A stretch of DNA of 64,000 nucleotides from Pseudomonadota bacterium. Its GTDB lineage: Bacteria; Pseudomonadota; Alphaproteobacteria; Rhodobacterales; Rhodobacteraceae. Location: positions 576,875-640,874 of the forward strand of contig JAIUPD010000001.1 of the NCBI GenBank assembly GCA_020161615.1. The letters run 5' to 3'. Every line of letters starts with the position of its first letter. Within the stretch, counting starts at the first letter, position 1. The notes under the pieces were generated by a model. The model saw nothing but the letters and a program-made list of their open reading frames with translations, had not been told where the DNA came from and did not search any database. This document shows, in pieces, positions 3,189 through 41,890 of this stretch. A program made the position numbers and the translations under genes.

Positions 3189-3540
3189 CGGGGGAGGGGT
3201 TTCGCCCTCGGTGCCCGCGCCTTCGGCTCGAGCGCCTCGGGCGACCAGCGGCGCGGCGTGCCGCCGCGCCGAAGAAGGGGGGCCTTCTGCCCCCCTCTTG
3301 GCCTGTGGCCAATTCACCCCCCCGAGGATATTTCGGGCGCAAAGAAGGCGGTTTAACGCCCCCTTAATCTTCATCTTCGTTCTGCAAATATCCTCGGGGG
3401 TTTCTCAAGGGGGTGGAAAACCCCCTTGAGCGGGGGTGCGGGGGTGAGCGGCGTTTCGGAAACGCGCCAGTGGCGCGCCTCTCGCCGCGAACGCCGCGCC
3501 CGTGGCGCGGCCGGACCAGGCCCCCCGCCTGCTCCCGCCC
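3189..3540. repeat. Composite intergenic element, copy A (complete, inverted)
   Basis: This fills the whole 353-base gap between the convergent scpB and mazG genes. On the + strand it reads: a triple-hairpin module (about 3195-3323); a GAGGATATTT arm at 3324-3333; a TTAA-CGCCCCC-TTAA dyad at 3353-3367; the inverted arm AAATATCCTC at 3386-3395; a 10-bp hairpin CTCAAGGGGG/CCCCCTTGAG at 3404-3430 with loop TGGAAAA; and a GC-rich module with hairpins at about 3444-3530. It is the reverse complement of the order in copy E (31495-31843). No protein-coding signal is convincing here. Bidirectional termination is a likely minimum role. Confidence 0.8.
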
Positions 3541-4344
3541 TCAGCGGGCTTTCTCGGCCGCTTTCGCCGCATCCCAGAGCGCGTCCATCTCGGCCAGGTC
3601 GCTATCCTCGGGGCGGCGCCCCTGGGCGGCGAGGGCGGCTTCGATGGCGCGGAAGCGGCGGGTGAATTTGTCGTTCGCCGCCCGAAGCGCCGCCTCGGGG
3701 TCGATGTCGAGATGGCGCGCCAGATTGGCCATCACGAAGAGGAGGTCGCCGTACTCCTCGAACCGGTCCTCGGGCGCGGCCTCGGTCAGCTCGCGCGCTT
3801 CCTCGGCGATCTTGTCCACGACCTGCGCCACCTCCGGCCAGTCGAAGCCCACCCGCGCCGCGCGCTTCTGCAGCTTCACCGCCCGCGTCAGTCCCGGATG
3901 GCCCAGCGGCACGTCGTCCAGCACCCCGGTCTGGGCGCGCGCCGCCCGCTCGCGGGCCTTCCGCGCCTCCCAGGCCTCGGTCTGGGCCTCGGCGCTGGCG
4001 ATCACCTCGGCGCCGAAGACATGGGGGTGGCGAGCGACCATCTTGTCGGCGATGCCGCGCAGTACGTCGTCGAGGGTGAAATGCCCCGCCTCCTCGGCCA
4101 TCTGCGCGTGATAGACCGACTGGAACAGCAGATCGCCCAGTTCGCCCTTCAGCCCGTCCCAATCCTGCCGGGCGATGGCATCGGCGACCTCATAGGCCTC
4201 TTCGATCGTATAGGGGGCGATCGAGGCGAAATCCTGCTCCAGGTCCCAGGGGCAGCCGCTCTCGGGCGCGCGCAGACGGGCCATGATGCGGGCCAGGCGG
4301 GGCAGCCCGCCCTCGGGATCGTGGATCAGCGGATCGTCGGCCAT
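3541..4344 (-). CDS. mazG: Nucleoside triphosphate pyrophosphohydrolase MazG
   Basis: Hydrolyses (d)NTPs to monophosphates and pyrophosphate, a house-cleaning function. The 267 residues hold two MazG repeats. The first starts near residue 30 with CPWDLEQDFASIAPYTIEEA and the EGELGDLL-like metal site (KGELGDLLFQSVYHAQMAEE). The second, after residue 150, contains EEARELTEAAPEDRFEEYGD, which supplies the Glu/Asp metal ligands. Length and architecture match the E. coli enzyme. It is convergent with scpB and divergent from the amidohydrolase, with 65 bases between that pair. Confidence 0.93.
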   Translation of the reverse strand: MADDPLIHDPEGGLPRLARIMARLRAPESGCPWDLEQDFASIAPYTIEEAYEVADAIARQDWDGLKGELGDLLFQSVYHAQMAEEAGHFTLDDVLRGIADKMVARHPHVFGAEVIASAEAQTEAWEARKARERAARAQTGVLDDVPLGHPGLTRAVKLQKRAARVGFDWPEVAQVVDKIAEEARELTEAAPEDRFEEYGDLLFVMANLARHLDIDPEAALRAANDKFTRRFRAIEAALAAQGRRPEDSDLAEMDALWDAAKAAEKAR

Positions 4345-4409
4345 TGAAACCCCTCGAAGAAGCGCGGATGCTGGGCCCCTCTATCCCTCAGCCTGCCCCC
4401 GGAGTCCAC

Positions 4410-5564
4410 ATGCCCGTCCTGAACCGCATCGCCGATTATGCGCCCCAGATGACCGAATGGCGCCGCCATCTGCACCAGCACCCCGAAACCCGCTTCGACT
4501 GCCACCAGACCGCCGCCTTCATCGCCGAACGGCTGCGCGATTTCGGCGTCGATGCGCTGCATGAGGGGATCGCGCAATCGGGGATCGTGGCGATCATCGA
4601 GGGGCAGGGGGAGGGGCCGACCATCGGGCTCCGCGCCGATATCGACGCGCTGCCGATCACCGAGGAGACGGGCGCGCCCCATGCCTCGACCGTGCCGGGC
4701 AAGATGCATGCCTGCGGCCATGACGGGCATACGACCATGCTGCTGGGCGCGGCGAAATACCTGGCCGAGACGCGGAATTTCGCCGGCCGGGTGGCGCTGA
4801 TCTTCCAGCCGGCCGAGGAATGGGGCGGGGGCGCCGAGGTCATGGTGCAGGAGGGGATCCTGGAGCGCTTCGGCATCGGCCAGGTCTATGCGCTGCACAA
4901 CGCGCCCGGCGTGGCGCTCGGCCGGTTCGAGGGGCGGGCGGGGCCGCTGATGGCCGCGGTCGACACGATGTATGTCACCGTGACCGGCCGCGGCGGCCAT
5001 GGCGCGCATCCCGAAGAGACCATCGACCCGGTCGCCGCCATCGTGCAGATGGTGAGCGCGCTGCAGACCGTGGTCAGCCGCAACCGCCGGGGGACGGATG
5101 CGCTGATCGTCTCGGTCACCCAGATCCACACCGGCTCGGCCGACAACATCATCCCCGAGAGCGGCTGGTTCTGCGCCACGATCCGCAGCTATGACGCGTC
5201 GGTCCGGGACATGGCCGAGGCGCGTTGCAGGGCCATCGTCGAGGGCGTGGCGGCGGCGATGGGGGTCAGCGCCGAGATCGCCTATGACCGCGGCTATCCC
5301 GCGACCATCAACCCCGAGGCCGAGACCGCCTTCGCCCTTTCCGTCGCGGCTGAAGTGGGGGTCGAGGCGGGCGACTGCGAACCCAGCATGGGGGCCGAGG
5401 ATTTCGCCTATATGCTGGAGAAACGCCCCGGCGCCTATCTGTTCCTGGGGCAGGGCGAGGGGGCCGGGCTGCATCACCCGAAATACGATTTCAACGATGC
5501 GGTGGCCCCGGTCGGCGCCAGCTTCTTTGCCCGGCTGGTCGAGCGGGCGCAGCCCCGGACCTGA
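4410..5564 (+). CDS. M20 family amidohydrolase (hippurate hydrolase-like)
   Basis: Metal-dependent amidohydrolase of the M20/HipO group, which cleaves N-acyl amino acids or related amides. I chose the ATG at 4410 (MPVLNRIADY) because GGAG lies at 4401-4404 and the 22 residues upstream look non-coding; this gives 384 residues. The family motif KMHACGHDGHT is at residues 98-108 (His100, His104, Asp105), followed by QPAEEWGGG with the catalytic Glu pair near 138. GRGGHGAHPEE marks the dimerisation lid. The substrate cannot be told from sequence. A bidirectional terminator separates it from yebC. Confidence 0.88.
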   Translation: MPVLNRIADYAPQMTEWRRHLHQHPETRFDCHQTAAFIAERLRDFGVDALHEGIAQSGIVAIIEGQGEGPTIGLRADIDALPITEETGAPHASTVPGKMHACGHDGHTTMLLGAAKYLAETRNFAGRVALIFQPAEEWGGGAEVMVQEGILERFGIGQVYALHNAPGVALGRFEGRAGPLMAAVDTMYVTVTGRGGHGAHPEETIDPVAAIVQMVSALQTVVSRNRRGTDALIVSVTQIHTGSADNIIPESGWFCATIRSYDASVRDMAEARCRAIVEGVAAAMGVSAEIAYDRGYPATINPEAETAFALSVAAEVGVEAGDCEPSMGAEDFAYMLEKRPGAYLFLGQGEGAGLHHPKYDFNDAVAPVGASFFARLVERAQPRT

Positions 5565-5572
5565 GGGCGCAA

Positions 5573-5600
5573 GAAAAAAGGGGGGCGGCTGCCCCCCTTG
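5573..5600. terminator. Bidirectional terminator between hipO-like gene and yebC
   Basis: A 9-bp stem AAGGGGGGC (5578-5586) / GCCCCCCTT (5591-5599) with loop GGCT. Six A residues precede it on the + strand, so minus-strand yebC transcripts end in a U run. It is weaker for the plus-strand gene. Confidence 0.8.
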
Positions 5601-5622
5601 CCAATCCTTGAAGGCCAGGCGC

Positions 5623-6363: not shown

Positions 6364-6453
6364 GATGCGCTCCGGGTCTTCGTGGTCGGGCAGGCTATAG
6401 TCCAGGCAGGGGCTGGCTGGCAAGGGCGGGCTGCAGGGCAGGGGTCACGGGCA

Positions 6454-6477
6454 ACGCCGGCCACGGGGGGCCGGCGT
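6454..6477. terminator. Hairpin after the DUF2726 gene
   Basis: Perfect 9-bp stem ACGCCGGCC (6454-6462) / GGCCGGCGT (6469-6477), loop ACGGGG, located 27 bases past the minus-strand DUF2726 stop. There is no U run, so this may be a factor-dependent end or an RNA-stabilising hairpin. Confidence 0.45.
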
Positions 6478-6503
6478 GCTGCAAGAAAGGGGGGCGGCGC
6501 GGC

Positions 6504-7329: not shown

Positions 7330-7356
7330 CTGCACATTCGTCAGAAAGACGCGGGG

Positions 7357-12947: not shown

Positions 12948-13868
12948 TTGGCCGGACAGGCCCCCGCCCCGCTGGCCGAGTGCGGCGCGCCCGAGGGCGG
13001 GCGTGCTGTCTGGCTGCGGGCTGCGGATGGCGTGCGGTTCCGGGTCGGTTACTGGCCCGGCGAGCGTCTGGCGCTGGTTCTGCCCGGGCGCACCGAAGTC
13101 ATCGAGAAATACGGGCTGGTCGTGCGCGATCTGGCCGCCGCCGGCTGGGGCGCGCTGGTGGTCGACTGGCGGGGGCAGGGGCTGGCCGACCGGGCGCTGG
13201 CCGATCCCCTGCGCGGCCATGTCGGCGATTTCGCCGAATTTCAGCGCGACCTCGACGCGGTGCTGGATTTCGCACAGGCGCAGGCGCCGGGCCCGATGCC
13301 CTGGCTCGCGCATTCCATGGGCGGCTGCATCGCCCTGCGCGGTCTGACGCGGGGCCTGCCCTGCAAGGCCGTGGCCTTCAGCGCGCCGATGCTGGGCCTG
13401 GCGCAGGAGCCGGGGAAGCTGAGGGCGCTGGGCTGGCTCGCGGCGCTGGCCCGGCCGTTCCGCGCGGACCGGGGCTATGCGCCGACCACCGGCGCGGGTT
13501 TCGGCCTGCCGTCGATGGCGTTCGAGGGCAACAACCTGACCACCGACCCGGCGCAATTCGAGCGGATGAAGGCGCAAATCCTGGGCGATCCCCGGCTCTC
13601 GCTCGGCGGCCCCTCGCTGCGCTGGATGGCGGCCGCGCTGGCCGAGATCGCGGCGCTGGCGGCGCTGCCTTCGCCCGAGGTGCCCGCCCTCTTCGGCCTG
13701 GGCGGGGCCGAGGGGATCGTTTCCCCCGCCGCGGTCCGGGATCGCGCGGCGCGCTGGCCGGGGGCGGAACTGGCGGAATACCCGGGCGCGCGGCACGAGC
13801 TGCTGATGGAACGGCCCGAGGTGCGCGAGGATTTCCTGGCCCGCGTGTCGGCGCTGTTTTCCCGGTGA
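12948..13868 (+). CDS. Alpha/beta hydrolase, lysophospholipase-like
   Basis: The 306-residue protein belongs to the Hydrolase_4/PldB group (monoacylglycerol lipase-like). Motifs are LVVDWRGQGLADR near residue 65, LAHSMGGCIALRG as the nucleophile elbow at about 122-134 (Ser in HSMGG), and the terminal GARHELLMERPE providing the catalytic His. The start is a TTG at 12948, four bases after the SCP2 stop with AAGG just upstream; no better start exists before the conserved region. Probable substrates are lysophospholipids or monoacylglycerols. The gene ends against composite element copy B. Confidence 0.85.
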   Translation: MAGQAPAPLAECGAPEGGRAVWLRAADGVRFRVGYWPGERLALVLPGRTEVIEKYGLVVRDLAAAGWGALVVDWRGQGLADRALADPLRGHVGDFAEFQRDLDAVLDFAQAQAPGPMPWLAHSMGGCIALRGLTRGLPCKAVAFSAPMLGLAQEPGKLRALGWLAALARPFRADRGYAPTTGAGFGLPSMAFEGNNLTTDPAQFERMKAQILGDPRLSLGGPSLRWMAAALAEIAALAALPSPEVPALFGLGGAEGIVSPAAVRDRAARWPGAELAEYPGARHELLMERPEVREDFLARVSALFSR

Positions 13869-14066
13869 CGAGGGAAGCGGGGGGCCAGCCCACACGACTC
13901 CCGGCCGCGCCACGGGCGCGGCGTTCGCGGCTGAAACGCGCCACTGGCGCGTTTCCGAGACGCCGCTCACCCCCCGCCAAAGGGGGTTTTCCACCCCCTT
14001 TGGGAACCCCCGAGGATATTTCCAGAACGAAGATGAACGCGGGTGGGTCGCTGAACGCGAGGTTAA
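13869..14066. repeat. Composite intergenic element, copy B (partial)
   Basis: It begins at the pldB-like stop codon. Modules in order are the GC-rich hairpin module (13900-13970, with CGCGCCA/TGGCGCG), a hairpin CCAAAGGGGG (13977-13986) / CCCCCTTTGG (13994-14003) with loop TTTTCCA, and a single GAGGATATTT arm at 14012-14021. A degenerate dyad TGAA-N7-TTAA follows at 14052-14066. The second inverted arm is missing. The remaining 14067-14204 holds a terminator-like hairpin and the leader of the aldo/keto reductase gene. Confidence 0.7.
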
Positions 14067-15212: not shown

Positions 15213-15318
15213 GCGACGTTTAACCCCTTGTTAACCGCGCATCTTTGTTCTGAAAATATCCTCAGGGGGTGAAGTCGCCCCCGGGGCGACGAGGGGGCAG
15301 AATGCCCCCTCTCTTCGT
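15213..15318. repeat. Composite intergenic element, copy C (half copy)
   Basis: This fills the gap between the convergent aldo/keto reductase and acyl-CoA ligase genes. It has a TTAA-CCCCTTG-TTAA dyad at 15220-15234, then 19 bases, then the arm AAATATCCTC at 15254-15263. Two hairpins follow: GTCGCCC (15274-15280) / GGGCGAC (15284-15290), and GAGGGGGCA / TGCCCCCTC at about 15291-15311. The left arm is absent. The hairpins probably terminate transcription from both sides. Confidence 0.7.
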
Positions 15319-28250: not shown

Positions 28251-28710
28251 CGGGCGCGAGGCGGCGGAAGGCGCGCTCCCGCCCGCCCACCCCGCGCGCC
28301 TTCCGCCGCGGCAAGGGTGGTGCTTGGGTCGGCCCCGGGGGGCCAGCCCCCCGGACCCCCCGGCGTATTTTTGGCAAAGTGAGGGGAAGGGTGGCTCGCC
28401 TGGTCGGACGCGCTCCTCTTCGTTCCTCGAGTCGTCTGCAGGGTGAGGGCCGCCCTGACGAGGCGTCGCTGGCACCGTGTCAGGCCCGAAGGCTCGGCGC
28501 GCAGGCGCGGGGCCGGAGCAGACCCTTGGGCCAGGGGGGGAAGCGCGGTCAGGCGATCGGCCCGAGGACGATCACCCGTGCCGAAGGTTGCCGCTTCCTT
28601 CGCGGCGCCGCGGGCCGCCCCTGGCGCCCGGGTCGGTGGGGGACGGGGGCGGCACCCCTCTGTCGCTCCTCGGGCGTTGACCTTCCGCCCGGGGCGGGGG
28701 CAAATCGGGC
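28251..28710. other. 460-base intergenic gap with hairpin and degenerate repeat
   Basis: No convincing gene. It contains a 16-bp perfect inverted repeat GCGGCGGAAGGCGCGC (28261-28276) / its complement at 28294-28309 with a 17-base loop, directly after the methyltransferase stop. A degenerate composite element D follows at 28318-28390. From 28400 to 28710 I see GC-rich sequence with no repeat, clear promoter or small ORF with a ribosome binding site. The glnE promoter must lie here. Confidence 0.5.
28318..28390. repeat. Composite intergenic element, copy D (degenerate)
   Basis: GC-rich hairpin GGGGGGCC-A-GCCCCCC (about 28338-28352), then CCCCCCGG and GTATTTTTGGCAAAGTGAGG. It has the layout of the arm region of the other copies, but GAGGATATTT is replaced by GGCGTATTTTT. 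I recall this second form being common in Rhodobacteraceae intergenic DNA. Confidence 0.45.
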
Positions 28711-31494
28711 ATGACGGATTTCATCGCCCGACTCACCCGTTGCCCCCTGCCGCATGATTCCGAGGCGGGCGCCGATATCGCCAGCCGTTTCTCGGGTCTC
28801 GCCCCCGAGCTGCGGGGCCTGCTGGAGGGCACCGCGGGCTGTTCGCCTTTCCTCAAGTCGCTGATGGAGCGCGAGGAAGTCTGGCTGCGCGCGGCGCTGG
28901 AGGGCGCGCCGGAGGCGGCGTTCGAGGGGATCCTTGACGCCCTTGTGCCCGAGGGGCCCGCCGCCACCGGCAGCGCCTTGCGGCAGGCCAAGCGGCGCGT
29001 CGCGCTTCTTGCGGCGCTGGCCGATCTGGGCGGGGTCTGGTCGCTGGAGGCGGTGACCCAGGCGCTGACCCGTTTCGCCGATCGCGCCGTGCAGCGCGCG
29101 CTTGCCACCCATCTGGCCGAGGAGATCCGCCGCGGCAAGATCCCCGGCGCCCAGCCCGGCGACGAAGAGCGGGGCGCGGGCATGGTGGCTTTCGCCATGG
29201 GCAAGATGGGCGCGGGCGAGCTGAATTATTCCTCCGACATCGACCTCATCTGCCTTTTCGACGAAAGCCGCTTCGCCCCGGACGACTGGCACGAGGCCCG
29301 GCAGGCCTTCATCCGCGCCACCCGCAAGATGGCGGCGATGCTGAACGACCATACCGGCGAGGGCTATGTCTTCCGCACCGACCTCAGGCTCAGGCCCGAC
29401 GCCAGCGTGACCCCGGTCTGTATCTCGATGGAGGCGGCCGAGCGCTATTACGAGAGCCTCGGCCGCACCTGGGAACGCGCCGCCTGGATCAAGGCGCGGC
29501 CCGCGGCGGGGGATCTGGAGGCGGGGGCGCGGTTCCAGGAGGCGCTCAGGCCCTTCGTCTGGCGCCGTCACCTCGATTTCGCGGCGATCCAGGACGCGCA
29601 TGACATGATCCGCCGGATCCGCGAGCACAAGGGGCTGGCCGGGGCGCTGGCGCTCGATGGCCACAACCTGAAGCTCGGCCGCGGCGGCATCCGCGAGATC
29701 GAATTCTTCACCCAGACCCGGCAGCTGATCGCCGGGGGGCGCGACCCGGATCTGCGGTCCCGCGACACGGTGGGCGGGCTGGCGGCACTGGCGGCGAAGG
29801 GCTGGGTGCCGGAGCCGGTGACGGCGGCGCTGACCGAGCTTTACCGCGCGCATCGGGAACTCGAGCATCGCCTGCAGATGGTGCAGGACGCCCAGACCCA
29901 GATCCTGCCGAAGACGCCCGAGGATTGGGACCGGCTCGCGCGGTTCTCGGGCGAGGGCGACACCGCCGCCTTCCGCGAGGCGCTGTTTGCCCGGCTCGAC
30001 CGGGTGACGGCGCTGACCGAGGATTTCTTCCAGCCGGGCGGGGGCGAGGCGGCGCCGCGCCCGAGCCTCAGCGAGCAGCAGCGCGAGGTGGTGCGCGGCT
30101 GGCGGGCGCTGCCCGCCCTGCGCTCGGCCCGGGCGCAGGAGATCTTCACCCGGCTGGAGCCCGAAATCCTGGCGCGGCTGTTGAAGGCCTCGCAGCCCGA
30201 CGAGGCGATCCTGGGCTTCGACCGCTTCCTTTCGGGCCTGCCGGCCGGGGTGCAGCTTTTCTCGCTCTTCGAGGCCAATCCGACCTTGATTGACCTTCTG
30301 GCCGATGTGCTGACCACGGCGCCGGTCCTGGGCCAGTATCTGGCGCGCAACGCCGGGGTTCTGGATGCGGTGATCGGCGGCGGCTTCTTCGCGCCCTGGC
30401 CGGGGACGGCGGCGCTGGCCGAGGGGCTGGCGCGGCGGCTCCAGGCCGAGGCGGATTACGAGAAGAAGCTCGATGCGGCGCGGGTCTGGATGAAGGAATG
30501 GCATTTCCGCATTGGCGTGCATCACCTGCGTGGGCTCATTGATGCCTTCGAGGCCGCAGGGCAATACGCCGGGCTCGCCGATGCGGTGCTGGCCGGGCTC
30601 TGGCCGCTGGTCGCGGCCGAATTCGCCCGCAAGCACGGACCGGCGCCCGGGCGGGGTGCGGTGGTGCTGGGAATGGGCTCGCTGGGCGCCGGGCGGCTCA
30701 ACGCGGCCTCGGACCTCGATCTCATCGTGATCTATGACGCGGCGGGGCAGGAGGCCTCGGAAGGGCCGCGCCCCCTCGCCGCGCGGGCCTATTTCGCCCG
30801 GCTGACGCAGGCGCTGGTGACGGCGCTGTCGGCGCCCATGGCGCAGGGGCGGCTTTATGAGGTCGACATGCGGCTCAGGCCCTCGGGGCGGCAGGGGCCG
30901 GTCGCGACCTCGTTCGATGCCTTCCGCAGCTATCAGGAGGGCGAGGCCTGGACCTGGGAGCATCTGGCGCTAACCCGGGCGCGGCCGGTGGCGGGCTCCG
31001 TGGCGCTGGGCGAGGAGGTGGAGCGGTTCCGGCAGGCTCTGCTCGGCCAGAAGGCGGAGGGCGCCGGCGTGGCCCGGGACGTGGCCGAGATGCGGGCCCG
31101 GCTCAGGGCGGCGAAGCCGGGGCAGGGCGGGCTCGAGGCCAAGGACGGGCCGGGGCGGTTGCAGGATATCGAGCTGCTGGCGCAGATGCTGGCGCTGAAG
31201 GCCGCCTCCTCCTCCCGGCGGGTCGAGGCGCAGATCGCTGCCGGCAAGCGCGCGGGCCTGATCGCCCCGGCCGAGAGCGCGCGGCTGCTGGCGGCCTACC
31301 GGCTGCTCTGGCGGGTGCAATGCGGGCTGCGGCTGCTGGCCCACCGGCCGAGCGAGCCGGCGACGCTGGGCGAAGGCGCGCGGGCCTTCCTGCTGCGCGA
31401 AGCGGGGGAGGAGGATCTGGACGCCCTGCTTTCCCGGCTGGAGGGGGCGGTGACCGAGGCTGCGGCAATCATCGACGCCGCCTTGGCGGACTAG
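28711..31494 (+). CDS. glnE: Bifunctional glutamine synthetase adenylyltransferase/adenylyl-removing enzyme
   Basis: Controls glutamine synthetase activity by adding or removing AMP in response to PII and glutamine. The 927-residue length is typical for the family in alphaproteobacteria. Two nucleotidyltransferase domains are intact: the N-terminal adenylyl-removing one with GKMGAGELNYSSDIDL near 166-181, and the C-terminal adenylyltransferase with GMGSLGAGRLNAASDLDL near 653-670. The segment LKLGRGGIREIEFFTQ near 320 is conserved. It stands alone between a long upstream gap and composite element E; glnA and glnB are not in the window. Confidence 0.95.
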   Translation: MTDFIARLTRCPLPHDSEAGADIASRFSGLAPELRGLLEGTAGCSPFLKSLMEREEVWLRAALEGAPEAAFEGILDALVPEGPAATGSALRQAKRRVALLAALADLGGVWSLEAVTQALTRFADRAVQRALATHLAEEIRRGKIPGAQPGDEERGAGMVAFAMGKMGAGELNYSSDIDLICLFDESRFAPDDWHEARQAFIRATRKMAAMLNDHTGEGYVFRTDLRLRPDASVTPVCISMEAAERYYESLGRTWERAAWIKARPAAGDLEAGARFQEALRPFVWRRHLDFAAIQDAHDMIRRIREHKGLAGALALDGHNLKLGRGGIREIEFFTQTRQLIAGGRDPDLRSRDTVGGLAALAAKGWVPEPVTAALTELYRAHRELEHRLQMVQDAQTQILPKTPEDWDRLARFSGEGDTAAFREALFARLDRVTALTEDFFQPGGGEAAPRPSLSEQQREVVRGWRALPALRSARAQEIFTRLEPEILARLLKASQPDEAILGFDRFLSGLPAGVQLFSLFEANPTLIDLLADVLTTAPVLGQYLARNAGVLDAVIGGGFFAPWPGTAALAEGLARRLQAEADYEKKLDAARVWMKEWHFRIGVHHLRGLIDAFEAAGQYAGLADAVLAGLWPLVAAEFARKHGPAPGRGAVVLGMGSLGAGRLNAASDLDLIVIYDAAGQEASEGPRPLAARAYFARLTQALVTALSAPMAQGRLYEVDMRLRPSGRQGPVATSFDAFRSYQEGEAWTWEHLALTRARPVAGSVALGEEVERFRQALLGQKAEGAGVARDVAEMRARLRAAKPGQGGLEAKDGPGRLQDIELLAQMLALKAASSSRRVEAQIAAGKRAGLIAPAESARLLAAYRLLWRVQCGLRLLAHRPSEPATLGEGARAFLLREAGEEDLDALLSRLEGAVTEAAAIIDAALAD

Positions 31495-31843
31495 AGACGA
31501 GGAAGCGGGGGGCCAAGGTCCGGCCGCGCCACGGGCGCGGCGTTCGCGGCGAGAGGCGCGCCACGGGCGCGTTTCCGTGACGCCGCTCACCCCAACGTCC
31601 CCGCCGAAGGGGGTTTTCCACCCCCTTTGGAAACCCCCGAGGATACTTGAGGCGCAAAGAAGGCGCCTTAACGCCCTCTTAACCTCCTTCTTTGCGCTGT
31701 AAATATCCTCGGGGGGTGAATGCCCGCAGGGCAGAGGGGGGCAGACGGCCCCCCTTCCTTCGGCGCGGCGGTACGCCGCGCCGCTGGTCGCCCGAGGCGC
31801 TCGTGCCGAAGGCGCGGGCAACGAGGGCGAAATCCCTCGCCCG
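31495..31843. repeat. Composite intergenic element, copy E (complete)
   Basis: This fills the gap between convergent glnE and the monooxygenase gene, starting at the base after the glnE stop. Order: GC-rich hairpin module (31515-31590); hairpin CCGAAGGGGG (31604-31613) / CCCCCTTTGG (31621-31630) with loop TTTTCCA; arm GAGGATACTT (31639-31648); TTAA-CGCCCTC-TTAA (31668-31682); inverted arm AAATATCCTC (31701-31710). A triple-hairpin module ends it: TGCCC/GGGCA at 31721-31733, GGGGGGC/GCCCCCC at 31736-31754, and GGCGCGGCG/CGCCGCGCC at 31762-31782. It ends at about 31837. Confidence 0.82.
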
Positions 31844-33025
31844 TCAGGCCGTCACGTCGTGCTCGTAGATCCAGTCGTAGCGCCGCAGCGCCAGGCTCGG
31901 GGTCAGGCGGTTGGCGGCGCGGAGCAGGGTGTGGGCCGCCTGGGCCATCGGGCCGCGAAGGTGGTAATTGCGGGCATTGGCATTGGCCGCGGCGACCACT
32001 TTCGCGGTGCGGGGCGCGCGGACGGTGGCGTAGGTCGCCAGGGCGCCTGCGGGGTTCTGCGGGCGACGGGCGAGGCTTCTGGCCAGGCACCAGGCGTCCT
32101 CGAGCGCCAGATTGGCGCCCTGGGCCATGAAGGGCAGCGTCGGATGCGCCGCGTCCCCCAGAAGGGCCGCGCGCCCGGCGCCGTCGTGCCAGTGCTCGGC
32201 CACCGGGTGGCGGAAGAGGCCCCAGAGGAAGACCTCCTCCACCGCGTCAAGCCAGCCCGGCACCGGGCCGCCGAAGCCTGCGAAGGCGGCTTTCAGCGCG
32301 GCCGGGTCATCGGGGTGATTCCAGCCCTCGGCCGCCCAGCTGCGGCGTTCCTGCACGGCGACGATGTTCCTGAGCGTCCCGCCCCGCAGCGGGTAGCTGA
32401 CGAGGTGCCGGCCCGGTCCCATGAAGACCTGCGCCACGCGTGGGCCGCCGTCGCCGGGAATCAGCGCGCGCCAGGCGACCTGGCCGGTGAAGAAGGGCTC
32501 GCGCTTGCCATTGAGCCGGGTCCTGAGGGGCGAGCGCAACCCGTCCGCCCCCAGCACGAGCGGTGCTTCATGCACGGCGCCCACGGCGGTGGTGATGCGG
32601 GCGCCAGATCGGGTCAGCGCGATGTCCTGGACCTGTTGCAGCAGCTGCACCTGTGTGCCCGCCGCGCGGGCGGCCGTCGCCAGCGCCTCGATCAGGTCGG
32701 CGCGGTGGCAAAGGTAGAAGCCCGGCCCCTGCTGCGGCAGGGCGAGGCGGGTGACGAGCCGCCCGGCACTGTCGCGCAGTTCCACGGCCTCGGAGCGGTC
32801 ACCGGCGGTTTCGGGATCGATTCCCAGTGCCCGCAGCACCCGGGCGCCATTCGGGCTGATCTGCAGCCCGGCGCCGACTTCGGTGATCTGGCCGGCCTGT
32901 TCCAGCAGCGCGACCTCGGCGCCTTGGTGGCAGAGCGCGGTGGCGGCCGCGAGGCCGGCGACGCCCGCGCCCAGGACCAGGGCATTCTGTCCGGCGAGGG
33001 GCGCGGCGGGATCCGTTGCGGGCAT
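31844..33025 (-). CDS. FAD-dependent monooxygenase (salicylate hydroxylase-like)
   Basis: Class A flavoprotein hydroxylase of 393 residues. The Rossmann dinucleotide fold is ALVLGAGVAGLAAATAL near 15-31 (GAGVAG). The DG-like motif LVLGADGLRSPLRTRL is near 155, and GDAAHPTLPFMAQGANLALE near 280 closes the FAD site (GD motif). The start at 33025 (MPATDPAAPL) is preferred because the upstream frame is part of the dksA gene on the same strand, read in another frame. Substrates of the family are aromatic acids; nothing adjacent identifies one. Its start is 26 bases after the dksA stop. Confidence 0.87.
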   Translation of the reverse strand: MPATDPAAPLAGQNALVLGAGVAGLAAATALCHQGAEVALLEQAGQITEVGAGLQISPNGARVLRALGIDPETAGDRSEAVELRDSAGRLVTRLALPQQGPGFYLCHRADLIEALATAARAAGTQVQLLQQVQDIALTRSGARITTAVGAVHEAPLVLGADGLRSPLRTRLNGKREPFFTGQVAWRALIPGDGGPRVAQVFMGPGRHLVSYPLRGGTLRNIVAVQERRSWAAEGWNHPDDPAALKAAFAGFGGPVPGWLDAVEEVFLWGLFRHPVAEHWHDGAGRAALLGDAAHPTLPFMAQGANLALEDAWCLARSLARRPQNPAGALATYATVRAPRTAKVVAAANANARNYHLRGPMAQAAHTLLRAANRLTPSLALRRYDWIYEHDVTA

Positions 33026-33051
33026 GGTTTCCGCCTGTGCTGGGCGGGCGC

Positions 33052-33474
33052 TCAGTCGTCGCGGTGAACGCGCTCGCTGCGCTCGTGACGTTCCTGGGCC
33101 TCGAGCGTCATGGTGGCGATCGGGCGGGCGTCGAGGCGCTTGAGCGAGATCGGCTCGCCGGTCATCTCGCAATAGCCGAATTCGCCATTGTCGATGCGGC
33201 GCAGCGCGGCGTCGATCTTGGCGACCAGCTTGCGCTGGCGGTCGCGGGTCCTGAGTTCCAGCGCGCGGTCGGTCTCTTCCGAGGCGCGGTCGGCCATGTC
33301 GGGCAGGTTGCGCGTGGAATTGGCGAGGTCGGCCAGCGTTTCCTTGCTGTCCTCGAGGATCTCTTCCTTCCAGGCAAGCAGCTTGCGGCGGAAGTACTCG
33401 AGCTGCCGTTCGTTCATGAACGGCTCGTCCTCGGCGGGCTTGTAATCGTCAGGCAGAAAGTTTTCCGGCTTCAT
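33052..33474 (-). CDS. dksA: RNA polymerase-binding factor DksA, single-Cys form
   Basis: Secondary-channel factor that modulates RNA polymerase with ppGpp. The 140 residues begin MKPENFLPDDYKPAEDEPFM, with the coiled coil MADRASEETDRALELRTRDR carrying the DxxDxA-like tip (DMADRASEE). The C-terminal globular region has FGYCEMTGEPISLKRLDARP. The usual four zinc cysteines are reduced to one: the pattern is Cys-Thr-Thr-Ala instead of four Cys. Non-zinc DksA variants are known. The start at 33474 is supported by AGGGGAT upstream; an in-frame ATG at 33543 would add 23 residues. Confidence 0.9.
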   Translation of the reverse strand: MKPENFLPDDYKPAEDEPFMNERQLEYFRRKLLAWKEEILEDSKETLADLANSTRNLPDMADRASEETDRALELRTRDRQRKLVAKIDAALRRIDNGEFGYCEMTGEPISLKRLDARPIATMTLEAQERHERSERVHRDD

Positions 33475-33769
33475 CAGCGTATCCCCTGTTTGCCCGGAAC
33501 CGAAGGCAACCGACTCGACGATGGTTTCGTTCTTTGCGGTCATTCCGAGCCCCCTCTGGGGACGCCTTAAACCCATGCAAGGGCGATGTCACGAGGCAAT
33601 CGGTAACATTTGCGGGCGCGTGTCCTGTGGGCCGCAGGGCGCGTGCCCCCATGTGTAGTGTCGGGTGACGCAACGGGGCCGGGGTGTGCTGCCTTGCGGC
33701 AGGACCGCGGCGCGGCTAGTGTCACGCCCGAGCCGCCCCCCGGGGGCGCGATTTCCGGGAAGGACCCAG

Positions 33770-34615
<846 letters not shown>

Positions 34616-34744
34616 GGGGTTTCGCCCTGGGCCTTCGGTCTGCGGGCGACCAAGGCGGGGGGCCAGCCCCCCGCACCCCCCGCTCAAGGGGGTTTTCCAC
34701 CCCCTTGAGAAACCCCCGAGGATATTTTCAGCGCAAAGAAGGGC
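34616..34744. repeat. Composite intergenic element, copy F (partial)
   Basis: This fills the convergent gap between the MoxR gene and xth, starting at the MoxR stop. It has GGGGTTTCGCCCT, then GGGGGGCCAGCCCCCCG, then hairpin CTCAAGGGGG (34683-34692) / CCCCCTTGAG (34700-34709) with loop TTTTCCA. One arm GAGGATATTT (34718-34727) follows, then GCGCAAAGAAG. The dyad and second arm are missing, as if truncated by the xth end. Confidence 0.72.
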
Positions 34745-35521
34745 TCAGGCGGCGAGATCGACCCAGACCGGCGTGTGGTCCGAGGGTTTGTCCCAGTCGC
34801 GGGGTTCGGTCTCGATCCAGCAATCCTGAAGCAGGTCGGCGGCCTGCGGCGAGAGCAGCCAATGGTCGATGCGGATCCCGTCGTTGCGGCCACGGGCGTT
34901 GGCCTGGTAATCCCAGAAGGAATAGAGCCCGGGTTCCGGGCGCCGCAGCCTGAGCGCGTCATAGAGACCCAGCGCTTCGAGACGGCGGAAGGCGGCGCGG
35001 CTGTCGGGCAGAAAGAGCGCGTCCTGGCGCCAGGCATCGGGGCGGGCGGCATCCTGGGGCTGCGGGATGACGTTGTAATCGCCGGCGAAGGCAAGGGGGC
35101 GTTCCTCGGCCAGCAGCGCCATGGCGCGGGCTTTCAGGCGTTCCATCCAGGCCAGCTTGTAGTCGTATTTGGGCCCGGGCGCCGGGTTGCCGTTCGGCAG
35201 GTAGAGGCCGCAGACCCGCAGCCCGGTGTCGCCGATATCGGCCTCGATCCAGCGCGCCTGTTCGTCCGTCTCATCGCCAGGCAGACCCCGGGTGACGTTG
35301 CTCAGCGGCAGCTTCGACAGGATCGCCACGCCGTTGAAGCCCTTTTGGCCATGGGTCTCCAGGTGATAGCCGCGATCCTCGATCAGGGCGCGGGGAAAGG
35401 CCTCGTCGACCGATTTGATCTCCTGCAGGACGGCCACATCGGGCTGGGCCTGGTCCAGCCAGCGGCCGAGCGTCTCGGCTCGCGCCTTGACGCCGTTGAT
35501 GTTGAAGGTGGCGAGTTTCAT
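34745..35521 (-). CDS. xth: Exodeoxyribonuclease III
   Basis: AP endonuclease and 3'-5' exonuclease of base excision repair. The 258 residues carry the ExoIII motifs: MKLATFNINGVKARAETLGR at the start, DVAVLQEIKS with the metal Glu near residue 36, the GLYLPNGNP loop near 108, LAFAGDYNVIP with Asp/Asn near 146, RIDHWLLSPQ near 219 and the terminal PSDHTPVWVD with the catalytic Asp-His. Length matches the bacterial enzyme. It converges with the MoxR gene and sits downstream of trpE on the same strand, separated by element G. Confidence 0.94.
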   Translation of the reverse strand: MKLATFNINGVKARAETLGRWLDQAQPDVAVLQEIKSVDEAFPRALIEDRGYHLETHGQKGFNGVAILSKLPLSNVTRGLPGDETDEQARWIEADIGDTGLRVCGLYLPNGNPAPGPKYDYKLAWMERLKARAMALLAEERPLAFAGDYNVIPQPQDAARPDAWRQDALFLPDSRAAFRRLEALGLYDALRLRRPEPGLYSFWDYQANARGRNDGIRIDHWLLSPQAADLLQDCWIETEPRDWDKPSDHTPVWVDLAA

Positions 35522-35579
35522 GGGCGTCCTCCGCAGCAGCGGGCCAGTGTCGCATGGCCGGGCACCGGAGGCCAGACCC

Positions 35580-35819
35580 GCGCCCCTTCATCTTCGTTCT
35601 TCAACTATCCTCGGGAGGATTTTCAAGGAGGGTGGAAAACCCTCCTTGAAGCAGGGGGTGCGGGGGGCAGCAGCCCCCCGCCCTTTGCGTTTTCTGGGGT
35701 CGGTCTTCCGGCCGCGCCACGGGCGCGGCGTTCGCGGCGAGAGGCGCGCCACTGGCGCGTTTCCGAGACGCCGCTCACCCCCGCGCCTCCGGTCGCCCGA
35801 GGCACGAGGGCGAAACCCC
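35580..35819. repeat. Composite intergenic element, copy G (rearranged)
   Basis: An arm in inverted form AACTATCCTC (35603-35612) and hairpin TTCAAGGAGGG (35622-35632) / CCCTCCTTGAA (35640-35650) with loop TGGAAAA come first. GGGGGGCAGCAGCCCCCC follows, then the GC-rich module (35708-35785) in the opposite relative orientation to copy A, and the GCACGAGGGCGAAACCCCT end that touches the trpE stop codon. The hairpin differs from other copies by paired changes that keep the stem. Confidence 0.72.
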
Positions 35820-37340
35820 TCAGTAATTGCCACGCACGAAGAGGCCCGCGCCCTCGGCCGCCGCGCGCAATGCCTTGGCCTTGTTGACCGATTCCTGCCA
35901 TTCGGCCTCGGGGTCGCTGTCGAAGACCACGCCGCCGCCGGCCTGGGTGTACATCACCCCGTCCTTCAGCACCGCCGTCCTGAGCGCGATGCAGAAATCC
36001 ATCTCGCCATTGGCGGCGAAATAGCCGATGCCGCCGCCGTAGATGCCGCGTTTCTCGGGCTCCAGCTCGTCGATGATCTGCATGGCACGGATTTTCGGCG
36101 CGCCCGAGACGGTGCCGGCGGGTAGACCCGCCAGCAGGGCGGACAAGGCATCCTCATCGTCGCGGATCTCGCCCACCACATTCGAGACGATGTGCATGAC
36201 GTGGGAATAGCGCTCGATGATGAATTTCTCGGTCGGGTGGACGGTGCCGATCTTGGCCACCCGGCCGACGTCGTTGCGGCCAAGGTCCAGCAGCATCAGA
36301 TGCTCGGCCAGTTCCTTCTGGTCGGCCAGCAGATCCAGTTCCAGCGCCTTGTCCTCCTCGGGCGTGGCGCCGCGCTTGCGGGTGCCGGCGATGGGGCGGA
36401 TCGTCACCTCGTTATCGCGCAGCCTGACCAGGATCTCGGGCGAGGCGCCGACGATGTGGAAGGCGCCGAGGTCGAAATAGACCATGAAGGGCGAGGGGTT
36501 GGTGCGCCTGAGCGAACGGTAGAGGGCGAAGGGCGGCAGCGGGAATTCCTGCGCCCAGCGTTGCGACGGCACGACCTGGAAGATGTCGCCCGCGCGGATG
36601 TAATCCTTGGCCTTCTCCACGGCGGCCTTGTAGCCCTCCTTGGTGAAGTTCGAGCGCGCCTCGCCGACGCTCAGCGCCGCGCCCAGCGTGCGGCCGGTCC
36701 CCACCGCCTCGCGTTCGAGATCGCGCAGCGCGTCCATCACCCGCTCGGCCGCCTGGGCATAGGCCGCGCGCGCCGAAAGGCCGGAATTGGCCCAGGCGGG
36801 CGAGACCACGGTCACCTCGCCCTTCACCCCGTCCAGCACCGCCACGATCGACGGGCGCATCAGCACCGCGTCGGGCAGGTCCAGCGGGTCGGGATTGGTC
36901 ATCGGCAGATGCTCGACCAGCCGGATCATGTCATAGCCGAGATAGCCGAAGAGCCCGGCCGAGATGGCGGGCAGGTCGGCCGGCATGATGATGCGGCTTT
37001 CGGCCAGGAGCTTGCGCAATTCCTCCAGCGGGTGCCCGGGCAGGTCGCGAAAGGCGTGGTCGTCGAACCGGGCCTCGCGGTTCACCCGGCTTTGGCCGTC
37101 GCGGCATTGCCAGATCAGATCGGGCTTGGTGCCGACGATGGAATAGCGGCCACGGATCTCGCCGCCGGTCACCGATTCCAGCATGAAGCTGTCCTTGCGG
37201 TTGCCGGCGATCTTCAGCATCAGCGAGACAGGCGTGTCCAGATCCGCGGCGAGGCGGGCATGGACAAGCTGGTTCTCGCCCCGGTTCCACCCGGCCTCGA
37301 ACTCGGCGAATGCGGGGAAGAGAAGGGTCGAGGTGGACAC
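35820..37340 (-). CDS. trpE: Anthranilate synthase component I
   Basis: Converts chorismate with ammonia to anthranilate, the first step of tryptophan synthesis. The 506 residues have the N-terminal regulatory domain with the LLES-type feedback motif region (DSFMLESVTGGEIRGRYSIV near 51-70). The chorismate-binding catalytic domain includes IRPIAGTRKRG near 315, DLGRNDVGRVAKIGTV near 356, SGAPKIRAMQIIDELE near 416 and the end GGGVVFDSDPEAEWQES. It follows ppiD by 19 bases and is likely co-transcribed. trpG and trpD do not follow; xth does, after element G. Confidence 0.96.
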   Translation of the reverse strand: MSTSTLLFPAFAEFEAGWNRGENQLVHARLAADLDTPVSLMLKIAGNRKDSFMLESVTGGEIRGRYSIVGTKPDLIWQCRDGQSRVNREARFDDHAFRDLPGHPLEELRKLLAESRIIMPADLPAISAGLFGYLGYDMIRLVEHLPMTNPDPLDLPDAVLMRPSIVAVLDGVKGEVTVVSPAWANSGLSARAAYAQAAERVMDALRDLEREAVGTGRTLGAALSVGEARSNFTKEGYKAAVEKAKDYIRAGDIFQVVPSQRWAQEFPLPPFALYRSLRRTNPSPFMVYFDLGAFHIVGASPEILVRLRDNEVTIRPIAGTRKRGATPEEDKALELDLLADQKELAEHLMLLDLGRNDVGRVAKIGTVHPTEKFIIERYSHVMHIVSNVVGEIRDDEDALSALLAGLPAGTVSGAPKIRAMQIIDELEPEKRGIYGGGIGYFAANGEMDFCIALRTAVLKDGVMYTQAGGGVVFDSDPEAEWQESVNKAKALRAAAEGAGLFVRGNY

Positions 37341-39219: not shown

Positions 39220-39339
39220 GGGGGGCTCCGTCCGTCTTGTCCGCATTTCGGGCTGGCCCTGTGTATGGCCAAGCGGGTCAGGGGGCAAGTCTGCTGCGCG
39301 GGCGCGGGGAGGGGCGCTGTCATGGCCCGAGGCGCGGGT

Positions 39340-39631
39340 GACGAGGTCGGCAGAGGCGGGGGGCCAACCCCCCGCACCCCCCGCCAAAGGGGACCCTCGG
39401 GCCCCCTTTGGAAACCCCCGAGGATATTTAGGGCACAAAGATGAAGGTTAAGGGGGCGTTAAGCCGCCTTCTTTGCGCCTCAAATATCCTCGGGGGGTGA
39501 ATGCCCGCAGGGCAGAGGGGGGCAGACGGCCCCCCTTCTTCGGCGCGGCGGCACGCCGCGCCGCTGGTCGCCCCCAATTTCGTCTCCAGGGACTTGGCGC
39601 CCGCGACAGCGGGCAACGAGGGCGAAACCGC
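39340..39631. repeat. Composite intergenic element, copy H (near complete)
   Basis: This occupies most of the 412-base gap between ppiD (5' end) and the aminotransferase stop. GGGGGGCCAACCCCCC comes first, then hairpin CCAAAGGGG (39384-39392) / CCCCTTTGG (39403-39411) with a different loop; arm GAGGATATTT (39420-39429); TTAA-GGGGGCG-TTAA (39448-39462); inverted arm AAATATCCTC (39482-39491). A triple-hairpin module at 39492-39575 is nearly identical to copy E. The end GGGCAACGAGGGCGAAACCG touches the aminotransferase stop. The remaining 39220-39339 is the ppiD promoter region, with no clear -35/-10. Confidence 0.82.
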
Positions 39632-40807
39632 TCAGGTCACGCGCTTCAGCCGGGCCATCAGATCGCCGATCTGGCTCACATCCGCATTGGCGAAGGCGAT
39701 GCGCATCTCGCGGGCGCCGCCAGGCGCGCCCTCGGGGCGGAACATCGTGCCGGGCAGCATCAGCACGCCCACCTCGGCCAGGAGCCGTTTGGCGATGGCG
39801 GGCGAGGGGGCCTCGAACGGGTGGCGGGCATAGGCGAAATAGGCGCCGCAGCCCAGGAGTTCCCATCCCGGCAGTCCGGCGAAACCCTCGGTCATCGCCT
39901 GGCGTCGGCGCAGGATTTCCTGCCGTTCGCCGTCGAGCCAATCCTCGAGGTTTTCCAGCCCCCAGAGCGCGGCCATCTGCCCGGGCCCCGAGACGCAGAT
40001 CGTCACCGTGTCGAGGAATTTCTCGATCTCCGCCAGGCGGTTCGGGGCGGCGGCGATGGCGCCGACGCGGTGGCCGGTCAGCCGGTAGGCCTTGGAGAAG
40101 CTGTAGAGATGGATGAAGCTCCGCTCCCAGTCGGGGTTCCGGAACAGCCGGTGGGGCGGGCCGTCCTGGGTGTGGAAATCCCGGTAGGTCTCGTCAACGA
40201 TGAGGGCGATGCCCCTTTCCTCGCAAAGCCGTGCGAAGGCGTCCAGCGTTTCGGCGCTGTATTCGACGCCGCCCGGGTTGTTGGGCGTGACGAGGGTGAT
40301 GGCCCGGGTGCGGGGGGTGATGAGGGCGGCGGCTTCCTCGGGGTCGGGTTGCAGGCCGGGGCCGGTCGGCAGGGGGATGGCCGTCACCCCGGTCATGCTG
40401 AGCCACATCACATGGTTGAAATACCAAGGCATGGGCAGGATCACCTCGTCCCCGGGGGCGGCGAGTGTCGCCATCACGGCGCAGAAAGCCTGATTGCAGC
40501 CCGAGGTCAGCGCCATCTGAGTGGCGCGGATCTCGCCCCCGTAGAGCGCGGCGGTGCGGGCGGCGAGGCGTTCGCGGAGGGGCGCGTTGCCCAGCACAGG
40601 GGAATAGAGGTGGATGCCCGGATCCTGCTCGATGGCCCGGGCCATGGCCGCGCGCATCGCGGCGGGCGGCGGGTCGACCGGGGCGGCCTGCGACAGGTTC
40701 AGAAGGGAATAGCCCTCGGGCAGCCGGGTTTCGGCCAGCCAGCGGCGGGCCTCCATCACCGGCGGGGCGAAGGTGGCGGCGAAGGCGGGGTTCAGCAGGA
40801 GGGACAT
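39632..40807 (-). CDS. PLP-dependent aminotransferase (class I/II)
   Basis: The 391-residue fold-type I enzyme is of the aspartate/aromatic aminotransferase group. Features are LTSGCNQAFCAVMATLAAPG (cofactor site, near 105), VTPNNPGGVEYSAETL near 180, LIVDETYRDFH with the Asp/Tyr cofactor ligands near 215, and the Schiff-base Lys in YSFSKAYRLTGHRVG near residue 240. The start at 40807 (MSLLLNPAF) is preferred to the longer frame, which overlaps the upstream membrane gene. Its substrate is not evident. It follows the membrane-protein gene by 61 bases. Confidence 0.9.
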   Translation of the reverse strand: MSLLLNPAFAATFAPPVMEARRWLAETRLPEGYSLLNLSQAAPVDPPPAAMRAAMARAIEQDPGIHLYSPVLGNAPLRERLAARTAALYGGEIRATQMALTSGCNQAFCAVMATLAAPGDEVILPMPWYFNHVMWLSMTGVTAIPLPTGPGLQPDPEEAAALITPRTRAITLVTPNNPGGVEYSAETLDAFARLCEERGIALIVDETYRDFHTQDGPPHRLFRNPDWERSFIHLYSFSKAYRLTGHRVGAIAAAPNRLAEIEKFLDTVTICVSGPGQMAALWGLENLEDWLDGERQEILRRRQAMTEGFAGLPGWELLGCGAYFAYARHPFEAPSPAIAKRLLAEVGVLMLPGTMFRPEGAPGGAREMRIAFANADVSQIGDLMARLKRVT

Positions 40808-40868
40808 GGCAGGCTCGCTTTGGGTGGCGCCAGACTGCCCCAAGGCCTTCCGACCCGCAAGCCGGGCC

Positions 40869-41699
40869 TCAGCGGCGGAGCGCGCGGGCGAAGCCCCAAG
40901 CCGAGGCCAGGCCCAGCGCGGCGAGGTAGAGCCAGGGCAGCGGGCGCCCGGCGAGACCATGCAGCAGAGAGGCCAGCACGACCCAGAAGCCATAGGTGGC
41001 ATAGCCGATGGCGACCGGGCGGCCGAGTTCCTGTCGGCCCCGGGCCATCCAGGCCATCAGCGCCAGCGTGGCCGGCATCACGGCGATGAGTCGGGCGCTG
41101 AGCGGGTCCGCGGCCCAGAGGAAGAGCGGCGCGAACGGCGCCGCGGGCCAGCCGTAAAGCGCCAGCGCCCAGAGGGCGAAGAGGGCGCAAAAGCCGGTCC
41201 AGATCGCCTGTTCGGCGGGGCCGGGCGGGCTGCCGCGGCGCAGGTCAGGGGCGCGGAGCATGGCGAGGGTCGCGCTGCAGGCAAGTCCCCCCGCTACGGC
41301 GAGGAAGGCCCAGGCGATCGGTGTCTGCCAGTCGAGCCGGTCTCGGTGGAGGAGGAGGACGGCGGCCACGACCGGGGCGAGATAGAGCGCGACCATGCCG
41401 AGATAGAGGCGGATGCGGGCCGGCGAGGGGCGCCAGAGCACGGTGAGGCCGGTGGCGGCGAAGGCCAGCGCCGCGGCCCCAAGGAAGCGAAACGCGAGGG
41501 GCGGCAGCAGCCAGGCGAAGCTGGTCGGCACCCCGAACCACCAGAATGGCGCGCCGAGGATGGCGCCCGCCGTGGCGAAGGCGATGCTGCGCTGGGCGCG
41601 GCGCTGGGTCGGGGCGAAACGCGGGGCGGAGCGGTGGAGGAGCAGCGCGGTCAGGGCGAAGAGCGCGAGGAGGATGAGGATTTGCAGGGCGAGGATCAT
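40869..41699 (-). CDS. Polytopic membrane protein of unknown function
   Basis: I do not recognise a family with confidence. The 276 residues form about eight hydrophobic helices, for example ILALQILILLALFALTALLL (1-21), FLGAAALAFAATGLTVLW, LYLGMVALYLAPVVAAVLLL, WAFLAVAGGLACSATLAML, and two near the C-terminus. Loops are short and Arg-rich, giving a positive-inside topology. There is no clear transporter motif. Start at 41699 has GAGG upstream. It precedes the aminotransferase on the same strand and may be co-transcribed with it. Confidence 0.65.
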   Translation of the reverse strand: MILALQILILLALFALTALLLHRSAPRFAPTQRRAQRSIAFATAGAILGAPFWWFGVPTSFAWLLPPLAFRFLGAAALAFAATGLTVLWRPSPARIRLYLGMVALYLAPVVAAVLLLHRDRLDWQTPIAWAFLAVAGGLACSATLAMLRAPDLRRGSPPGPAEQAIWTGFCALFALWALALYGWPAAPFAPLFLWAADPLSARLIAVMPATLALMAWMARGRQELGRPVAIGYATYGFWVVLASLLHGLAGRPLPWLYLAALGLASAWGFARALRR

Positions 41700-41778
41700 C
41701 GGGCGGTCTCCGCTGGCGGCTGTGGGCAGGGTAGGCGTGGCGGTGCCGTGCGGCAAGCGGCGAGACCGAGGGCTGCGG

Positions 41779-41890
41779 GCGACGCAGAGGGCGGGCCGGG
41801 GGGCATCGAGCCCCCCGGCCCGCCTCGGGGGCGCTGCCCCCGCCGGCCTTCGGCCGCCCCCGGGATATTTGCCGCGCAAAGAAGGGGGCG
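41779..41890. repeat. Composite intergenic element, copy I (partial)
   Basis: This lies between two divergent genes. A 15-bp perfect stem (41790-41804 / 41810-41824, loop ATCGA) starting GGCGGGCC comes first, then further GC-rich hairpins, then GGGATATTT at 41862-41870 followed by GCCGCGCAAAGAAGGGGG. It has the arm plus the GCGCAAAGAAG suffix of other copies, but no dyad and no second arm. This is the only copy between divergent starts. Confidence 0.6.

Follow-up and report, generated by a model that had tools for sequence, protein, structure and literature searches.

The stretch of DNA analyzed here (hereafter the window) comprises 64,000 nucleotides of contig 1 of G000, a 4.87-Mb draft genome of the family Rhodobacteraceae that we take to be a Pararhodobacter or close to it. 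Our codon-model script called 64 genes in the window, and nine of the regions between them, designated A to I, carry copies of a family of composite intergenic repeats that is the subject of this study (Table 1). The initial annotation had described these regions as a dispersed mosaic of a GC-rich hairpin module, a short hairpin, arms followed by the motif G-x-RCAAAGAWG and a triple-hairpin module, and had likened it to the bacterial interspersed mosaic elements (BIME) and repetitive extragenic palindromes (REP) of enterobacteria. Comparison of the nine regions yielded at least 60 gapless repeat families, of which 20 were listed; the families linking them include one of 137 nt in A, E and H, one of 84 nt in B, E, F and H, and one of 85 nt in E and G. 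Together with our gene calls, these families bear out that all nine regions hold the described modules, lie between genes and represent a dispersed composite mosaic comparable to BIME/REP. Two regions depart from that description, D carrying a different tail class, GGCGTATTTTTGGCAAAGTGAGG, and I carrying CCCGGGATATTT. In addition, GAGGATATTT and G-x-RCAAAGAWG proved to be a single half-site of two blocks at a fixed distance.

Table 1. Repeat copies of the window and their parts; gene context is from our gene calls, and M1 denotes a 76-nt double-hairpin cassette
Copy	Feature	Positions	Strand	Gene context	Evidence
A	Full composite: M4 side, two facing half-sites, short hairpin, M1	3189..3540	-	convergent	repeat families, gene calls
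A	Half-site, GCGC/AAG class	3319..3347	+		matrix, 44.3 bits
A	Half-site, GAAC/ATG class	3372..3400	-		matrix, 50.0 bits
A	M1, two hairpins	3440..3515	-		M1 match G000:C1:580314-580389
B	M1	13898..13974	+	tandem	M1 match G000:C1:590772-590848
B	Single half-site, C-tract side toward stop of gene 12948-13868	14007..14035	+		matrix
C	Single half-site	15240..15268	-	convergent	matrix
D	Related tail class: hairpin and GGCGTATTTTTGGCAAAGTGAGG, not GAGGATATTT class	28318..28390	+	tandem	
E	Full composite: M1, short hairpin, half-site pair, M4	31495..31843	+	convergent	repeat families
E	M1	31519..31593	+		M1 match G000:C1:608393-608467
E	Half-site	31634..31662	+		matrix
E	Half-site	31687..31715	-		matrix
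F	Single half-site; 29/29 positions identical in G304, with M1 outside it there	34713..34741	+	convergent	matrix
G	Single half-site	35589..35617	-	tandem	matrix
G	M1; inverted in orthologous G304 spacer	35705..35782	+		M1 match
H	Composite without M1; half-sites 39415-39443 (+) and 39468-39496 (-)	39340..39631	+	tandem	repeat families, matrix
I	Half-site variant CCCCCGGGATATTT, kept in G304	41856..41884	+	divergent	matrix

The repeat family is genome-wide and not confined to the window. The word GAGGATATTT occurs exactly at 138 sites of G000 (72 and 66 on the two strands, as against 0 and 1 for the reversed control), M1 has at least 34 matches (40 of 100 candidates were scored; M1 candidates were capped at 40, so that M1 counts are lower bounds), and words of the element top the list of words enriched in spacers. 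A 29-nt half-site matrix, seeded with the 21 exact matches in a 464-kb sample (positions 1-400,000 of contig 1 plus the window) and then refined on its own matches, found 31 sites in this sample at the threshold of at least 25 bits and none between 12 and 25 bits; Markov-shuffled sequence gave no match, and none above 12 bits in the final matrix round. In this unselected sample 30 of the 31 half-sites lie between genes, and the 31st overlaps a called gene start, where the half-site's own ATG may be the true start of the gene. The copies are not distributed equally into coding regions, and they align through the core GAGGATATTT...CAAAGA rather than through GC-rich low complexity.

Anatomy of the half-element

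The repeat unit is the half-element, not the palindrome. It consists, in order, of a G-tract hairpin, often a second hairpin, a C-tract, and then CCCCCGAGGATATTT-N2-RG-[AA/CG]-CRAAGAWG; read from the C-tract side, the half-site is CCCCC-GAGGATATTT-NN-RG-(AA or CG)-C-R-AAGA-WG. The loop of the G-tract/C-tract hairpin is often YGTCTG or TTTTCCA. Copies that had been regarded as complete are two half-elements placed head to head, with an optional M1 on the outer side, and such a pair gives a 72-nt palindrome, which in G000 is found chiefly between convergent genes. A set of 109 half-sites combines those of the 464-kb sample with those of 40 stretches of contigs 2-5, 7 and 8; counts in this set lean to the exact word because the stretches were picked around exact matches. 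In it 58 half-sites form 29 pairs, 27 of which are equally spaced, and 51 are single. The mosaic of subsets and rearrangements claimed at the outset was upheld and refined, in that the half-element also occurs alone and modules are exchanged at orthologous sites, not merely lost or reshuffled. The dinucleotide at half-site positions 20-21 of 29 is nearly exclusively CG (70) or AA (35, with 4 others); it toggles with few intermediates, also between orthologous copies. Elsewhere in the Rhodobacteraceae (loci L031-L143) the inner purine block falls into the classes CAGATGAAG, CAGAAAATG, CAAGAGGAAG and GAGTATGAAAG, two of which are sometimes seen within one palindrome.

The hairpins of the unit were characterized in 90 half-elements chosen for having a YGTCTG loop, a G-tract and a second C-tract; they came from fetched Rhodobacteraceae contigs (including P. 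aggregans), from plasmids and from stretches of the genus. The lengths of the G-tract and the second C-tract are equal in 79 of these (rho 0.80, p 2e-21) and in 66 of the 75 that have a partner. With the G-tract of the partner half, the second C-tract shows no correlation (rho -0.10, p 0.37, n=75). With a looser expression, 97 of 229 C-tract-bearing half-sites in a comparable set carry such a hairpin. The second hairpin, between the C-tracts, has a mean energy of -9.7 kcal/mol in 81 cases versus -3.3 for shuffles; 64 of 67 distinct versions are predicted to fold, although their sequence is free and the base pairs vary at every one of the first 7 positions of the stem. M1 is predicted to form two strong hairpins, at -45.2 kcal/mol (z -2.8) for one strand and -44.2 kcal/mol (z -1.0) for the other. 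For copy E, the M4 half-element has a folding energy of -62.7 kcal/mol (z -4.7). A closing stem CCTCGGG...CCCGAGG, suggested by one fold, was rejected as a general feature: matches of at least 7 over 406 half-sites numbered 77, versus 45 for shuffled upstreams and 69 for arms dealt to other upstreams, and any match of at least 6 was seen in 8 of 34 GTGG, CGGG or TGGG variants. As a separate observation, the hairpin start and loop of TTTTCCA-loop hairpins resemble the half-site word, and where their purine strand ends in A the tail carries T and G before GAGG (L083, L100, L106, L202 and L231).

The length match between the G-tract and the second C-tract is the most unusual detail of the element. 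Its ordinary reading is that two C-tracts compete for one G-tract. It is highly improbable, in our estimate, that the second C-tract instead serves as a third strand, which would make the half-element an intramolecular triplex beside the conserved half-site at gene ends. The second C-tract does follow its own hairpin's purine strand, and where the difference is clearest (nine elements with a score difference of at least 2) it is always the mirror image and never a direct copy, which fits the parallel rule C+.G-C / T.A-T; with only such differences kept, 8 classes are mirror and none direct. When all differences are counted (n=178), 24 elements favor the mirror and 33 the direct relation, the latter mostly by a single terminal T in one Gemmobacter-type class, with 121 ties, and overall the two relations are not separable (z about 13 both ways over 260 elements). 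This full count led us to halve an estimate that was already low.

Distribution, gene context and turnover

Across genomes the parts of the element differ in breadth. The full 349-nt element has matches in 22 of 40 genomes, G000 included, 18 of which belong to the genus; it is strong only in G000 and its congener G304 among the genomes searched, and fragmentary in other genus members. M1 was found in 7 of the 18 genus genomes, with at least 34 matches in G000, at least 27 in G304, and 1-5 in five other members, and none was found in the remaining 11; identical M1 copies sit on different contigs. The half-element is much wider than the full element: 139 of the 295 family genomes contain CCCCGAGGATATTT and none contains the control. 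G000 is one of the 139 and has 108 copies, as against 55 for the richest other genus; the exact paired form occurs in 7 of the 295. Matches listed in a scan of named genomes (80 of 113 stretches titled) come mostly from Gemmobacter, Pararhodobacter and other Rhodobacteraceae, and stray matches in Rhizobium, Caldicoprobacter, Oscillospiraceae, Porphyromonadaceae and one further bacterium lack the flanking C-tract. Part of the query is also matched by nine plasmid records (Phaeobacter, Thioclava, Roseobacter and Pelagovum), and in the four inspected the element lies between annotated genes; phage records gave no match.

The position of the repeats relative to genes points to gene ends. A hand tally of the matrix sites over 264 spacers puts half-sites in 11 of the 34 between convergent genes, 11 of the 169 between tandem genes and 2 of the 61 between divergent genes; a narrower regular expression, which misses GTGG variants, gave 9 of 34 convergent versus 11 of 230 other spacers (p = 2e-4). 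Single half-sites between convergent genes lie 50-655 nt from the gene on their C-tract side and, in 15 of 24 cases, only 2-36 nt from the gene on the other side. A loose terminator detector fires in 8 of 9 convergent spacers with the element and in 10 of 25 without it; it is uninformative on mutual exclusion with canonical terminators because it fires inside elements. At 5 of the 22 single half-sites in tandem spacers, our script placed the start codon of the following gene on the ATG of CAAAGATG, with GGAG, GAGG or AGAG ahead of it, and there the repeat may also supply the translation start. These sites lie on contig 1 near 44,894, where GGAG is kept in G304, and 388,771, and at L224, L243 and L246; contig-1 318,804 is perhaps another.

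To follow change over a short evolutionary distance, 130 syntenic gene junctions were paired between G000 and the fetched part of G304. At 13 of these orthologous spacers one or both species have an element, and 10 of the 13 contain a half-site of the GAGG/GTGG/CGGG kind in each species. M1 is present in one species only at four (F, 80190, 85501 and 333947) and oppositely oriented at one (G), and the tail class is swapped at three (69654, 324102 and, on one side only, 49380); one half-element, at window position 48,492, is found only in G304. At 69654 and 324102 the class GGCGTATTTTTGGCAAAGTGA stands in G000 where G304 has GAGGATATTT. At these two spacers the element and a hairpin with a TATTTTT tail replace each other. 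A second repeat class, CCCCCCGGCGTATTTTTGGCAAAGTGAGG and its variants, was observed at 28318-28390 of the window and in contig 1 spacers 69654, 119555, 130771, 324102, 372088 and 391382; it has a better U-tract, and at 69654 and 324102 G304 has the GAGGATATTT class instead.

Nine half-site pairs could be compared position by position. The core differs at 2-3% of positions (C-tract 1/45, GAGGATATTT 3/90, CRAAGA 1/54), and the remainder far more: 11/27 (41%) in the 3-nt spacer, 7/18 (39%) at AA/CG and 3/18 (17%) at the end dinucleotide. As a yardstick, 26 element-free spacers chosen for similar length differ at 9.9%. Half-site arms dealt at random differ at about 52% in the spacer, so that an orthologous element comes close to one picked at random. 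Within a frozen frame, a spacer that changes some four times as fast as its surroundings is what copy overwriting would produce, because copies share the frame; one copy thus seems to overwrite another, through recombination or gene conversion.

Function and relationship to known repeats

A role at gene 3' ends is the best-supported reading of these observations. More fully, we give about even credence to the view that the repeats are a gene 3'-end module family of the Rhodobacteraceae, strongly amplified in two Pararhodobacter genomes, spread by copy exchange and acting in termination or end protection. The half-element usually lies near a stop codon, and M1 comes and goes on its outer side; in the transcript of the outer gene the hairpins and half-site would form the mRNA 3' end, by termination or end protection; the half-site blocks would be read by RNA polymerase or a putative factor; and copies would spread and overwrite each other by recombination or gene conversion. 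Several points weigh against this view. Termination is predicted from sequence, GAGGATATTT is a poor U-tract, and a conserved purine block past the tail is more than a plain terminator requires. With the narrower expression, stop-bearing and divergent spacers are separated only at p = 0.052 (19/203 vs 1/61), and among 107 half-sites assigned to a gene context 5 fall in divergent spacers. The orientation bias is weak, the C-tract side facing the stop in 15 of 22 single tandem sites of G000 and, in the fetched contigs, in 2 of 3 Pararhodobacter and 3 of 6 other Rhodobacteraceae sites, as well as at all four plasmid places, two of them homologous. The contig loci were divided by title, or by likeness for untitled loci and one Rhodobacter sp.; six of them, L049, L062, L066, L095 and L109 (by title) and the untitled L129 (by flanks), were excluded from these counts and from the other analyses made on the divided loci. 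Paired half-sites in the fetched contigs, whose loci were chosen by the palindrome, lie in 101 tandem versus 68 convergent spacers. Gene conversion is deduced from rates in few pairs: 5 of the 13 spacers with unequal half-site sets and 2 with a half-site reaching into a gene were left out, and the element-free yardstick favors well-aligned spacers.

Termination or mRNA end protection ranks ahead of two alternatives, a mark read by a protein and pure selfishness. It appears rather unlikely that these are REP-like repeats, or miniature inverted-repeat transposable elements (MITE), mobilized in trans by a putative transposase, devoid of host function, and tolerated past stop codons as the places where an insertion is least damaging. 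The high copy number, the patchy occurrence of M1 among genus genomes, its identical copies on different contigs, and its presence, absence and inversion at orthologous spacers are all in keeping with such selfish spread, but no match to PF01797 was found in the draft assemblies of G000 and G304, no target-site duplication or terminal inverted repeat was seen by eye, and selfish copies are not required to keep half-site blocks that persist between species and recur across the family. We regard as similarly doubtful the proposal that the half-site is the site of a DNA- or RNA-binding Rhodobacteraceae protein organizing gene ends, with the hairpins secondary. Two nearly invariant blocks at a fixed distance around a free 3-nt spacer, arms not selected to pair with each other, and an inner block that varies among genera and even inside a genus, next to a constant outer block (the one used to find the loci), would suit such a site; however, there is no candidate protein, and the C-tract and length-matched hairpin belong to the unit.

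Two further proposals are far less credible. The 72-nt palindrome as the functional unit, in the form of a long hairpin or cruciform, is suggested by 26 exact palindromes in G000 and by the shared spacing of 27 of 29 pairs. Nevertheless, arms of the same palindrome and random arms are alike to much the same degree (0.448 vs 0.484 in the spacer, 0.603 vs 0.603 at AA/CG, 0.845 vs 0.882 in the end block), nearly half of the half-sites are single, and in other genera the arms may differ in their inner blocks; a functional palindrome is therefore very improbable. On this arm-shuffling test we reject the long hairpin as the selected unit, the proposal being mostly refuted by it: the whole palindrome has no sign of selection for pairing, while the half-site blocks and the fold of the second hairpin are conserved. 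Many Pararhodobacter palindromes have TTAA-N7-TTAA at their apex (e.g. window positions 3353, 31668 and 39448), which we take to be the CtrA consensus. That this is a CtrA box, and the elements binding or decoy sites for CtrA, is the least credible of the proposals. The genome has 37 such sites versus 17 for a reversed-pattern control, at least 25 of the 37 lie at an element (positions matched by hand), and the N7 differs between species; against this, the box is broken in one or both species at three orthologous palindromes (80190, 85501 and 333947) and was not seen among the Gemmobacter palindromes listed.

If the gene 3'-end reading holds, many Rhodobacteraceae would have their gene ends marked by a single system of interchangeable cassettes, evolving through exchange between copies. 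Its conserved blocks would then point to a candidate reader, and neighboring species would offer natural swaps, in the presence of M1 and in tail class, for asking what a gene end needs. The repeats may also confuse assembly and start-codon calls.

Among known systems, intrinsic terminators consist of a GC hairpin followed by an AT-rich tail or U-tract after the stop codon. The elements share the GC hairpin and AT-rich tail after stops, and are interchanged with a hairpin and TATTTTT tail, but differ in their weak U-tract and in the conserved purine block past the tail. Paired DNA uptake sequences, present in a thousand or so copies, act as terminators, being short conserved words often found as inverted pairs at gene ends; the likeness lies in just these features, and the difference in the 138 exact words and the attached hairpin modules of the present family. 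Rfam gave no hit in the whole window at the gathering threshold, and its sole hit up to E = 1 in 31400-35900 was FinP, at 22.2 bits against a threshold of 45. No description of the family was found in the literature searched (mostly non-subscription papers), and among the 20 top-ranked of 123 papers containing the half-site word none deals with it.

From the parts of the publications consulted, BIME/REP with their REP-associated tyrosine transposases (RAYT) are extragenic, hairpin-forming, composite, mostly downstream of genes and of fast turnover (PMC2817692, PMC3733652), and REP are defined as 20-40 bp palindromes with a GTAG or CGTC tag at one end (PMC3733652). High copy number, extragenic location mostly downstream of genes, hairpins, composite structure and fast turnover are common to the elements described here, which differ in having a 29-nt non-hairpin core and units of about 75-350 nt. 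By eye, no end tag was seen in the half-site consensus or at the ends of M1, where CGTC is internal only; in the draft assemblies, Y1 transposase (PF01797) has no match in the M1-rich G000 and G304, and the two of 18 genus genomes with matches (G300 and G306) have no M1 match. The element thus fails two defining REP tests, the tag and RAYT. As for MITE, no terminal inverted repeat or target-site duplication was seen by eye at filled and empty M1 pairs. The nearest kind would appear to be the mosaic intergenic repeats of the RIME/BIME type. The RIME and the A, B and C palindromic elements of Rhizobium and Sinorhizobium are described, in the portion of the source consulted, as intergenic, present in dozens of copies and named mosaic elements (PMC2573895). 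They belong to bacteria of another order, and the likeness rests on descriptions rather than on RIME1 or RIME2 sequence; what the two share is an alphaproteobacterial intergenic mosaic of palindromic modules.

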